From contig JAFUTP010000044.1 in assembly GCA_017484165.1 (NCBI GenBank), positions 1 to 33,084 of the forward strand: a DNA stretch of 33,084 nucleotides, given 5' to 3'. This stretch comes from Cardiobacteriaceae bacterium (lineage in GTDB: Bacteria; Pseudomonadota; Gammaproteobacteria; Cardiobacteriales; Cardiobacteriaceae). Numbering within the stretch: the first letter of the stretch is position 1; every line of letters begins with the position of its first letter. Under the pieces are notes generated by a model, which was not told the origin of the DNA, made no database searches, and was given only the letters and a program-made list of their open reading frames with translations. The translations under genes were made by a program, and so were the position numbers. This document shows positions 2,334-10,997 of the stretch, piece after piece.

Positions 2334-3977
2334 CTAATCATTTGCCGCTTTCGGCATTTTTTTCTGCAATTTACTCTCGCCATAATGCTTATTCATCAGA
2401 TATTGCTGCACGATACCGAAAGCATTCGACACCGTCCAATAAAGCACCAAACCAGACGGGAATACCGCAAACATCATCCCGAAAATCAACGGCATCATCA
2501 GCATCATTTTTTGCATCATCGGATCAGGCGGTGGCGGATTGAGTTTTTGTTGCACGAACATCAAAGCGGTATTGATGATTGGCAGCACGAAATAAGGATC
2601 CATTACCGATAAATCCTTAATCCAGAAAATCCAAGCCGATTGCCGCAACTCGACGCTCTCCGCCAACATATAGTAAAAAGCAATAAAGAACGGAATTTGC
2701 AACAACATCGGCAAGCATCCGCTCATCGGATTGACTTGCTCGCGGCGGAATAATTTCATTTGCTCCTGCGCCATTTTTTGGCGATCTTCACCGTATCTTT
2801 CCCGCAAACGGTTCAGCTCTGGCTGCAACAGCCGCATTTTCGCCATCGACTTATAAGCCCAAGCAGACGGCATAAAAAATAAGCCCTTAATCATCAAAGT
2901 AATAACCACAATCGACCAGCCCCAGTTTCCAAGCAGGGAATAAATCAAGTCCATTACTTTGAACATAAATTCCGAAATAATGAAAAGCCAACCGTAATCC
3001 ACCGCTTTATCCAAATACGGTGCGGTTTTTTCTAGATTTTTAACAATTTTCGGACCGATATAAGCCTTGCCCGCAAACTCATAATCCGCACCATTTTCCA
3101 CGGTGAATAATTCGGTTTTAACTCCAACGATATGGTCGCCCGTGTTCTGATTGTAATTAGTGAAAATTCTTTGCTCTTTACCGCTTTCTGGCACAAATGC
3201 GGCAATGAAATAATGCTGAATCATCGCCACCCAACCGTCTTTGCCAGCTATGTCTTTTTGATATTTATTAGCCTTTTTCGAAGCGGGATTTATGCTTTCT
3301 AAATCATCTAACTTTATCTTTTCATAACGCTTTTGTTCGGTTGAAATTGCCGCTCCAGTAAAAGTCGCCGCACTGGATAAACCACCGCCCTGCGGTTTTC
3401 CGAAAGCAATTTGGTTATAAGCGCGCCCTACCCAATCGCTGCCGCTTTCGTTATGCACTTTTTGGCTAATTTCAATTTCATAGCTGTTGCGCTTAAATGT
3501 AAAAGTTTTAACCGAAGTTACACCTTCTGCATCAGTCCAATAAAACGGAACGATTAATTTATCCTCACCGTCTTTTAAGTGATAAAACTCTTTATCTACC
3601 GTCCAATTTGCAAGATGCGAGGGCGCGTTAGTATTGTCTCCGTGCGCAATTCCAGAAAGCATCTGCATACGGTTAGGATTATCAGAACGGATTAAAGAAA
3701 GCGGTTTTTCATCTTGCAAAGAAGTCGGATATTGCAATAAATTCGCCGCAATAATTCCAGCACCTTTGGTATCAATATAAACATCATAAACATCAGTTTT
3801 AATTCGCACCTTTTGGCTTCCAGAATTACCCTCTTGTATATTTTCTGGCAGGCTCTCTTGTTGAGTTTGCTCCTGTGATAGATAATGCTCCCGACTCGCA
3901 ATTTGCCATTTATTCCACAAAATAAAAAGAAGACCGAAAGCGATGATGTAAAGCATAACTCTTACATTTATTTTCAT
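2334..3977 (-). CDS. yidC: Membrane protein insertase YidC
   Basis: YidC inserts and folds inner-membrane proteins, alone or with SecYEG. This 547-residue protein has the proteobacterial layout: an N-terminal membrane anchor (about residues 6-22), a large periplasmic domain (about 30-340) and a C-terminal five-helix core. Family motifs are clear: KSMAKMRLLQPELNRLRERYG (coiled cytoplasmic loop), NPMSGCLPMLLQIPFFIAFYY and FPSGLVLYWTVSN. The conserved positive charge in the hydrophilic groove (Arg366 in E. coli) appears here as Lys364 in the string LMIKGLFF, a substitution also common in other bacteria. The gene is last in the rpmH-rnpA-yidD-yidC order. The more usual following gene mnmE is absent. 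Confidence 0.97.
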   Translation of the reverse strand: MKINVRVMLYIIAFGLLFILWNKWQIASREHYLSQEQTQQESLPENIQEGNSGSQKVRIKTDVYDVYIDTKGAGIIAANLLQYPTSLQDEKPLSLIRSDNPNRMQMLSGIAHGDNTNAPSHLANWTVDKEFYHLKDGEDKLIVPFYWTDAEGVTSVKTFTFKRNSYEIEISQKVHNESGSDWVGRAYNQIAFGKPQGGGLSSAATFTGAAISTEQKRYEKIKLDDLESINPASKKANKYQKDIAGKDGWVAMIQHYFIAAFVPESGKEQRIFTNYNQNTGDHIVGVKTELFTVENGADYEFAGKAYIGPKIVKNLEKTAPYLDKAVDYGWLFIISEFMFKVMDLIYSLLGNWGWSIVVITLMIKGLFFMPSAWAYKSMAKMRLLQPELNRLRERYGEDRQKMAQEQMKLFRREQVNPMSGCLPMLLQIPFFIAFYYMLAESVELRQSAWIFWIKDLSVMDPYFVLPIINTALMFVQQKLNPPPPDPMMQKMMLMMPLIFGMMFAVFPSGLVLYWTVSNAFGIVQQYLMNKHYGESKLQKKMPKAAND

Positions 3978-4050
3978 TATTGCTTTTTCCTATTTTTTAT
4001 CGATTTAATGAGATATTCATAACTTAAAATATAAATCTGCAAGATTATTT

Positions 4051-4299
4051 TTATTCTTGATTATTTACGATATTTTTCTGTTTCTCTGTCTCTGGAACTG
4101 GGTCATATCCGCCACGACAAAAGGGATTACAACGCAGAATTCTTTTTATACAAAGCCAAGAACCTTTTATCGCACCGAAACGAGCAATTGCCTCTTCACC
4201 ATAATGCGAACAAGTCGGTTCAAAACGACATTGCCCACCGATATACGGACTTAAAGTAATACGGTAAAGTTTTATCAAAGAAATCAATATTTTAGCCAT
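4051..4299 (-). CDS. yidD: Membrane protein insertion efficiency factor YidD
   Basis: YidD is a small inner-membrane-associated protein that improves YidC-dependent insertion; its mechanism is not settled. The 82-residue product shows the family block: [25 protein letters not shown], and [13 protein letters not shown] with its conserved cysteines. A longer frame opens at a TTG (4320), but the ATG at 4299 overlaps the rnpA stop as TGATG, the usual arrangement for coupled translation, so I use it. It lies between rnpA and yidC, as in most bacteria. Confidence 0.95.
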
Positions 4300-4721
4300 C
4301 AAGACAAAATTCTCCGCCAATGATGTTGTAAAGACTTAAATAATGCTTGATTATCCGCTTCCCTTGCCTGCGTTTTCGCCATCAAAACAATGTCGTAGGA
4401 ATAACAACATTTCCTATCGTCTTGCAAATTATCAGAAGGAATAATTAAAGCCGCATCGGAGCTTTTTTTTGCATAATTAAAGTCAATTTTGCGAAAAGAT
4501 TCACGGCTAATTCTTTTAATACGATTTCTATCAACTGCGAGATGAATTTTCTTTTTCGCAATTGCTAAACCCAGTCGCAATTTTGGGCTTTCTGATAAAT
4601 AAATAAGAGCTAAAACAGTGAAATATCGGTCGGAACTTTTTTTCTGCGGATTGTTAAAAACCGCTTGAAATTCAGCTCGTTTTAATAACCGCGAGGTTTT
4701 AGGAAAGGACTTTTTATCCAT
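4299..4721 (-). CDS. rnpA: Ribonuclease P protein component
   Basis: RnpA is the protein subunit of RNase P and helps the catalytic RNA bind pre-tRNA for 5' leader removal. The 140-residue product has the family signature: [17 protein letters not shown] at the start, [22 protein letters not shown] in the RNA-binding centre, and a basic C-terminus. The frame extends upstream to 4766, but MDKKSFPK at 4721 matches the usual N-terminus. The Shine-Dalgarno sequence there is weak, so translation may depend on coupling or an open leader. It lies 87 bases after rpmH in the classic order. Confidence 0.95.
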
Positions 4722-4808
4722 AATTGCCAGAAGCAATACATAAAAATAGCGCGACTGAAAATTCAATCACGCTTTTTATCTAAAACTCAACAAAAAATAA
4801 ACGCGAAA

Positions 4809-9552: not shown

Positions 9553-10116
9553 TTACAGCAAAACAAGCAACTGCCGCAAAAATTCAGCGTTAAAAGCCTC
9601 ACCAGGATCGGTTTTTCTATTCGGCGCGATGAAGGAATGAGTGGTGATTTTTTCAGCTGTAATGCTGGGATATTTCCACATCAAGGCGTGAATTAGCTTG
9701 GCAATCGCTTGATACTGCTGCAGCGTGTAAGGAATATCGTCAGCACCGTTAATTTCAATGCCGATGGAAAAATCATTGCAATTTTCGCGACCGTAAAAAT
9801 TCGACACGCCCGCGTGCCAAGCGCGATTTTTGGTAGCAACAAACTGAATAATCTCACCGTTGCGAGCAATAAAAAAATGCGCGGAAACCCGTAAATCAGC
9901 AATCGTCGGAAAAAAATCATCTTCGGCAAGATGCGAAGAAATTTCCCCGAGAAAAAATTTTTCCACAAAAAAACTGCCAAATTGCTTGGGCGGCAAGGAA
10001 ATATTGTGTAAAACCACTAAATCAATATTCGTGTTTTCTGGACGCAGATTGAAATGCGGTGAAGGAATTTTTCTTGCAACATCGAGCCAACCGTCATCAT
10101 CAATATTCCAATCCAT
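9553..10116 (-). CDS. ampD: 1,6-anhydro-N-acetylmuramyl-L-alanine amidase AmpD
   Basis: AmpD cleaves the stem peptide from anhydromuropeptides in the cytoplasm during wall recycling, and so sets the level of the signal that induces AmpC in some species. The 187-residue chain has all expected ligands: zinc-binding His37 (VVLHNIS), His160 (TTHSFIAP) and Asp170 (RKTDPG), with catalytic Glu121 (SIGIEING) and Lys168. The start at 10116 follows a strong AAGGGAA site; upstream extension to 10185 is not needed. No ampE is adjacent. A serine hydrolase gene follows. Confidence 0.95.
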   Translation of the reverse strand: MDWNIDDDGWLDVARKIPSPHFNLRPENTNIDLVVLHNISLPPKQFGSFFVEKFFLGEISSHLAEDDFFPTIADLRVSAHFFIARNGEIIQFVATKNRAWHAGVSNFYGRENCNDFSIGIEINGADDIPYTLQQYQAIAKLIHALMWKYPSITAEKITTHSFIAPNRKTDPGEAFNAEFLRQLLVLL

Positions 10117-10146
10117 TTGATTTCCCTTATTCGCTGTTTTTGTATG

Positions 10147-10358
10147 TTTTCCACATTCGCTAGCAAAAAAAATGTGGAAAAGCAATAGTGAAAAAAATTT
10201 TTTTCTTTTTAGCTATCATTTTTGCTAATTCGTTGATTTTATTGAACTTTTACAATGTAAAACAAATTCTTCCAAACTGCCAATATCACGAATACAACAA
10301 GAAAAAATCACAATCCACAAAAGTTTTCCACATTTTTATCCACAAAGACGGTGGAAAA
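10147..10358. other. Cluster of DnaA boxes in an AT-rich intergenic region
   Basis: This 337-base gap between ampD and a lipoprotein gene holds four exact matches to the DnaA box TTWTNCACA: TTTTCCACA at 10147-10155 and 10324-10332, TTATCCACA (the strongest E. coli form) at 10336-10344, and TGTGGAAAA on the other strand at 10173-10181. Near matches lie at 10311-10319 and 10350-10358. Between the two groups is a very AT-rich stretch (about 10185-10300) that could be an unwinding element. An origin or a DnaA-controlled site is possible; dnaA itself is not in the window. No GATC site was seen here. Confidence 0.6.
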
Positions 10359-10391
10359 AATTTTGCCGAAAAAAGTAGCAAATTTGCAAAT

Positions 10392-10422
10392 AAAAAAACG
10401 CTGGACGAAACCAGCGTTTTTT
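10392..10422. terminator. Bidirectional terminator after the lipoprotein gene
   Basis: The stem AACGCTGG/CCAGCGTT (10397-10404 with 10411-10418) has a six-base loop and is flanked by A and T runs that extend the pairing to about 12 bases. On the minus strand it follows the lipoprotein gene by about 30 bases. Confidence 0.8.
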
Positions 10423-10453
10423 GCATTTTTATTGCAAGGAATTTCAGCAATTT

Positions 10454-10771
10454 TTAATAACCGTAACCAGATTGCTGATAACCGTTAGCGTATCCCGAGT
10501 TGTATTGCTGATTGGCATAGCCAGAGTTGTAGTTTTGATCGTAGCTTTGATAGTTATTGTTGTTCGAACCAGAACGGATTTGCGAACCAATCAAGCCACC
10601 GACAACCGCGCCCGTTATTGCTGATTCGTGGTTATCACCCAGTGCCAAACCAGCAACCGCACCAACTCCCGTTCCGATTGCGGCATTGCGCGCCATATCA
10701 GGATTTTCAGCACAACCTGCAAGTAGCATTCCTGAAATAGCCAGTCCAAAAATAAGACTTTGTTTTTTCAT
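10454..10771 (-). CDS. Glycine-zipper outer-membrane lipoprotein
   Basis: The 105-residue precursor has a lipoprotein signal with lipobox LAGC (MKKQSLIFGLAISGMLLAGC), so the mature protein is probably anchored to the outer membrane. A glycine-zipper segment follows (AAIGTGVGAVAGLALG and AITGAVVGGLIGSQI), typical of the 17-kDa antigen/YMGG-like families, which can insert in or pack on membranes. The tail is made of imperfect Tyr/Asn/Gln/Ser repeats (QQYNSGYANGYQQSGYGY). The start has CGGAG about 8 bases upstream. Function is unknown. Confidence 0.85.
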   Translation of the reverse strand: MKKQSLIFGLAISGMLLAGCAENPDMARNAAIGTGVGAVAGLALGDNHESAITGAVVGGLIGSQIRSGSNNNNYQSYDQNYNSGYANQQYNSGYANGYQQSGYGY

Positions 10772-10880: not shown

Positions 10881-10997
10881 GGCGTGTCTAAAAATTCGTC
10901 ATTTTGAGCCGCAGGCGAAAAATCTCTATCGTCAGATCCTTCGCAGCGCTCAGGATGACGAGGTAAAAAATAGAACTACCTAAATGTAGATGCACCT
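10881..10997 (-). repeat. Small inverted-repeat element (MITE-like), copy A
   Basis: About 117 bp, related to copies at 12446-12565 and 32657-32773 but in the opposite orientation. The ends are GGCGTGTCTAAA and, read inward from the other side, GGTGCATCTACA. A second, inner inverted repeat (TCGTCATTTTGAGCC against GCTCAGGATGACGA) makes the whole element palindromic. ATTT flanks both sides (10876-10879 and 10998-11001), a possible target-site duplication. It ends inside the argH stop codon and carries no gene. Confidence 0.8.

Follow-up and report, generated by a model that had tools for sequence, protein, structure and literature searches.

A probable DARS-type DnaA-regulating locus of variant layout upstream of ampD in a Cardiobacteriaceae genome

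A short gap between two genes of a Cardiobacteriaceae bacterium contains a cluster of DnaA boxes, and the question is what such a cluster is for. The gap, between ampD and a gene for a glycine-zipper lipoprotein, lies within a window of 33,084 nucleotides, by which we mean the whole stretch of DNA analysed (assembly GCA_017484165.1, contig JAFUTP010000044.1). A first-pass annotation of the sequence suggested a replication origin, a DnaA-titration site or DnaA-regulated promoters. By analogy with Escherichia coli, we consider that the element is probably a DARS-type chromosomal DnaA-regulating locus with a variant layout. The window genome (G000) comprises 77 contigs and 1.8 Mb and is 87% complete, and the genome of the same genus used for comparison (G001) is 72% complete. 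The window is approximately 90% identical to a same-genus contig matching G001 (identity with G001 over 1.8 kb).

DnaA boxes of the gap and the question of an origin

The 337-base gene-free gap described in the first-pass annotation is real: it occupies 10117-10453, bounded by the start codon of ampD (10114-10116) and by the stop of the lipoprotein gene at 10454. The features of the gap and its neighbours are as follows:

9553-10116, minus strand: ampD (1,6-anhydro-N-acetylmuramyl-L-alanine amidase), left neighbour (NCBIfam NF008758, 247 bits)
10147-10155, plus strand: upstream DnaA box TTTTCCACA, exact match, 177 bp before box III and in the same orientation
10173-10181, minus strand: extra inverted DnaA box TTTTCCACA, exact, forming an inverted repeat with 10147
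10187-10195, minus strand: near-match DnaA box TTTTTCACT, one mismatch, also present in the same-genus genome
10226-10238, plus strand: predicted IHF site TAATTCGTTGATT, zero mismatches to YAANNNNTTGATW, starting 98 bp before box III
10248-10262, no strand: 15-bp palindrome TTTTACAATGTAAAA, read directly, identical in the same-genus genome
10324-10332, plus strand: core DnaA box III, TTTTCCACA, exact match
10336-10344, plus strand: core DnaA box II, TTATCCACA, exact, 12 bp after III
10350-10358, minus strand: core DnaA box I, TTTTCCACC, one mismatch, inverted, 14 bp after II
10394-10421, minus strand: likely intrinsic terminator of the right-hand gene, AAAACGCTGG...CCAGCGTTTTTT, read directly
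10454-10771, minus strand: small glycine-zipper (OsmB-like) lipoprotein gene, right neighbour

The lipoprotein of the same-genus genome has a far longer C-terminal repeat. A dispersed repeat (AATTCGTCATTTTGAGC...) is present at 10893, 12536 and 32745 of the window and at 1066, 9262, 10946 and 16642 of another stretch (L011); these places include the dnaA-dnaN gap of the window genome.

Four exact matches to TTWTNCACA on both strands had been reported, and all four are found in the gap, at 10147(+), 10173(-), 10324(+) and 10336(+). The two reported near matches are likewise present as the one-mismatch boxes 10187-10195(-) and 10350-10358(-), and they are in part putative functional anatomy. The number of boxes exceeds chance, as had been claimed: when a 333-base slice of the gap (30% GC) was shuffled 20,000 times with its dinucleotides preserved, no shuffle reached four boxes, the maximum being three. 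The motif itself is not rare, with 339 matches in the 1.8 Mb of the genome against 101 for the reversed pattern, and two further exact boxes lie within ampD, at 9959(+) and 10005(-). Upstream boxes in the orientation of the one at 10147 are found in relatives at -162 to -188 from box III. The extra inverted box at 10173 has one mismatch in the same-genus genome, and none was found at the equivalent place in the other genera compared.

A box cluster with an AT-rich core would be compatible with a replication origin (oriC). The window genome, however, has a dnaA-dnaN cluster: on contig C37, the gap between dnaA and the gene after it, read as dnaN, holds six exact boxes in approximately 175 bp and includes AT-rich stretches, as against the four boxes of the element on its separate contig. 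GC skew was followed in G004, a genome of the same family in a single contig of 2.0 Mb, first in 15-kb samples taken around the chromosome and then in adjoining pieces that cover 1.20-1.515 Mb. The cumulative minimum is at approximately 1,305,000 and dnaA starts at 1,305,187, while the equivalent of the window element, at 1,466,250, is inside the positive arm, 161 kb from the skew minimum and dnaA. Within the window the skew does not change sign at 10.1-10.4 kb. The skew of G003 was too noisy for use, and the window genome is in 77 contigs. In G008 approximately 123 kb separate the element from dnaA. An oriC at the element was rejected on the G004 skew and the dnaA-dnaN cluster; we regard it as extremely unlikely.

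Several observations concern the dnaA region itself. The window has yidC, preceded by two ORFs where yidD and rnpA are expected, at 2334-4766, approximately 5 kb from the element; dnaA is on another contig than this region, so that the usual dnaA-rpmH neighbourhood seems to be split. In another genome of the family (G005, contig C12), the gap downstream of dnaA (L046:2773-2948) has 11 perfect TTATCCACA boxes, mostly in two facing arrays.

Layout of the element and its conservation

The three boxes at the right-hand end of the cluster form a core of the order III-12-II-14-inverted I, box II being at +12 and the inverted box I at +26 from box III. The III-II pair occurs once in the window genome and once each in G001, G004 and G007, every time upstream of ampD, and its reversed control has no match anywhere. 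When the three-box core was searched for with up to two mismatches, one match was obtained in the window genome and none for the control.

Lack of conservation in relatives had been named as one part of what would refute the first-pass reading; the element is present in relatives. Among 19 loci chosen by the III-II pair alone, seven have an IHF site in the slot -101..-94 (8 bp; at most one mismatch, window orientation) against 0.19 expected, although these seven are not all independent, since the window and some of its close relatives are among the loci. Box-IHF-box at the window spacing is present in 16 of 369 sampled genomes of the class (approximately 4%), a lower bound because the pattern permits no mismatch, and neither the reversed pattern nor an IHF site shifted by 30 bp between the same boxes was found in any of the 369. 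The core boxes, absent from this query, accompany it: a box at +12 (at most one mismatch) in 13 of the 16 and an inverted box at +26 in most of them. The remaining three have two mismatches at +12 (L144), another register (L146) and no such core (L151). At the level of the phylum, III-II-IHF was found in 11 of 398 genomes, six of them outside the class, and its reversed pattern in none of the 398. In a pattern scan of named genomes the matches were in Cardiobacteriaceae, in Alcaligenaceae including Paenalcaligenes suwonensis (Burkholderiales), in SAR92/Cellvibrionales and in one Magnetococcales contig, and the IHF-to-III distance was 99 in nearly all of them.

Some single loci deserve mention. 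An Alcaligenaceae MAG contig (L161; 623-830 and 1057-1265) has two tandem copies of box-IHF-DARS core 434 bp apart. A contig binned as Flavobacteriaceae TMED48 (L163) carries an element near-identical to that of a Cellvibrionales contig (L159) and is likely mis-binned. In G004, a second, weaker DARS-like core (L190) is at C1:388382-388416, near the skew-inferred terminus.

Could the element be a promoter under DnaA and IHF control that serves ampD? It is directly upstream of this gene in the window, G001, G004, G007 and G009. The flanking genes vary by lineage, however, and the same layout elsewhere adjoins aroE/dctM, malic enzyme, priA, hemW, pckG and others. In G006, of the same family, AmpD was not detected and the element is retained, in two copies 9 kb apart (C9:55141 and 64144; L065, L074), and in G008 ampD lies far from it. 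Given these contexts the element is no fixed promoter of ampD; the promoter as main role was rejected on them, and the DnaA-regulated promoter of the first-pass annotation is, for ampD, very unlikely.

A plain titration site, which would only sequester DnaA, would agree with the cluster being the densest in the window, with a denser one only beside dnaA in the genome stretches examined. Titration, on the other hand, needs no fixed spacing, and the distances of IHF site and boxes vary by no more than a few bp from family to family, which makes this explanation improbable.

Predicted sites for IHF and Fis

The perfect IHF consensus at 10226-10238 is a feature that the first-pass annotation did not contain. 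Shuffles place a perfect consensus within 3 bp of 10226 in 0.07% of cases. The distance from its start to box III is 98 bp in the window and 95-101 in relatives. An IhfA-like protein is encoded in the window genome (114.8 bits, slightly short of the curated cut-off). IHF is needed for E. coli DARS2 (PMC4245941), and a perfect site at -98 would, by analogy, favour a DARS-type element here.

The other activator of DARS2 is Fis, which E. coli DARS2 also needs. Matches to the published Fis consensus, GnnYAnnnnnTRnnC (PMC8682772), cluster in many relatives at -63 to -67 from box III and are few elsewhere in the 260-bp span; in six of 11 further loci a match was seen at the same place. That relatives with fis often carry one there suggests a DARS-type role as well. 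In the window and G001 elements no Fis consensus was found. A search for the fis gene gave nothing in G001 and, in G000, no more than a partial match of 27 bits, as compared with scores of 56-93 bits in G003, G004, G006-G009, G012 and G026. The fis gene has likely been lost in the window genus; likely rather than proven, because G000 (87%) and G001 (72%) are both incomplete. The missing site counts against the name DARS2 but not against DARS, since DARS1 has no Fis feature. The palindrome TTTTACAATGTAAAA is approximately one helical turn from the place of the Fis site of relatives.

Comparison with DARS1, DARS2 and datA

Most knowledge of DARS and datA loci comes from E. coli and closely related beta- and gammaproteobacteria, and the effect of datA on DnaA is opposite to that of DARS. 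At DARS2 of E. coli, IHF bends the DNA, DnaA is bound head-to-head on boxes I and II, and ADP is released. We infer a comparable course of protein binding, looping and reactivation for the present element. DnaA would bind the three-box core (III-II-inverted I) and the distant box 177 bp away; IHF, bound 98 bp from the core, would bend the DNA so that the distant box meets the core. With DnaA molecules facing each other on boxes I and II, ADP-DnaA would then be made to release its ADP, and the freed DnaA could take up ATP and start the next round of replication.

The DARS core has been described as having equal spacing at both loci, with box I opposite to II and III (PMC5742627), and according to the same review the DARS2 spacing is conserved in beta- and gammaproteobacterial species proximal to E. 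coli (PMC5742627). As measured in MG1655, the cores of DARS1 and DARS2 have the 12/14 spacing and the inverted box I, identical to the window, in which II and III are in tandem and box I has one mismatch. A core with this geometry that is unique in the genome would speak for DARS. The perfect IHF consensus at 10226-10238 beside the core corresponds to DARS2, and the Fis site of DARS2 is missing in the window and in G001.

Other points would argue against DARS: the mismatch in box I, a window genus with neither a Fis site nor a recognisable fis, a site order other than that of E. coli DARS2, a box-IHF-box frame that at 97-98 bp appears to be that of datA, and the strict pattern in only approximately 4% of the sampled class genomes. 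E. coli DARS sites are mid-arm. The element is origin-proximal in G004 (161 kb of 2.0 Mb) and G008 (approximately 123 kb), which is more datA-like, and together with the datA-like frame this may indicate a DnaA-inactivating or dual role.

The element was at first read as datA alone, on the 97-bp IHF spacing, and this was changed once the core matched DARS. A datA-type locus would act through IHF bending between the same-direction boxes 10147 and 10324/10336, by which ATP-DnaA would be assembled head-to-tail, ATP hydrolysed and initiation shut off after each round. The essential boxes of datA are all in one direction (PMC5742627); the IHF-to-box distance (98 against 97), the same orientation, the same-direction boxes on either side and, somewhat, the origin-proximal position in G004 and G008 favour such action. 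The box at +12, however, is direct in the window and inverted in datA, the inverted box being at +26 as in DARS, and the box-to-box distance is 177 against 162. On balance a datA-type locus is rather unlikely. It can also be imagined, with a low probability, that one locus combines the datA frame (box-IHF-box) with the DARS core as a bifunctional switch, inactivating or reactivating DnaA by IHF/Fis occupancy, and represents an ancestral Pseudomonadota form behind E. coli datA, DARS1 and DARS2.

We return to a DARS-type locus of variant layout as the probable reading. The earlier description of a DnaA-binding locus was right but too vague, for the layout places the element in the DARS/datA class of loci that regulate DnaA. 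A description of the present form was not found in the papers examined, nor were papers on oriC or DARS in Cardiobacteriales. The fixed order box-IHF-(Fis)-DARS core in Cardiobacteriaceae, Burkholderiales and SAR92 and, in the phylum genomes sampled, beyond the class suggests an ancient origin for the recharging of DnaA at chromosomal sites; the layout offers a searchable signature for such sites and testable ideas on the origin of datA and DARS.

Compared locus by locus, DARS1 (bioD-uvrB gap) has the common III-12-II-14-inverted I core, a decayed IHF-like sequence of its own at -99 and a one-mismatch box at -177, the two occurring jointly in 0.1% of shuffles. It differs in working without IHF, in having no consensus IHF site and in its neighbour genes. 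DARS2 (rppH-mutH gap) has the same core spacing and orientation and a same-direction upstream IHF site; its IBS2, at -87, is 11 bp, approximately one helical turn, from the -98 of the window. Unlike the window, DARS2 has a pair of IHF sites lying 3 bp apart, with a Fis region on their far side, and further boxes, and it lacks a same-direction box at -177, whereas the window lacks a Fis site. The order also differs, the Fis-like site of relatives being between IHF and core and that of DARS2 beyond IHF. In datA (glyY-queG gap) same-direction high-affinity boxes surround one IHF site in the same orientation, with 97 bp from IHF to box 3 against 98 in the window, and box 10147 takes the position analogous to datA box 2. 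It differs in a box-to-box distance of 162 against 177 and in having no DARS core, its stimulatory box 4 at +12 from box 3 being inverted; datA further has a low-affinity box 7. Because of this comparison with the E. coli loci, the window element can be described as a DARS core plus most of the datA frame. From the known forms it differs in the order of its sites, the -177 box, the Fis-less form in the window genus and its wider range.
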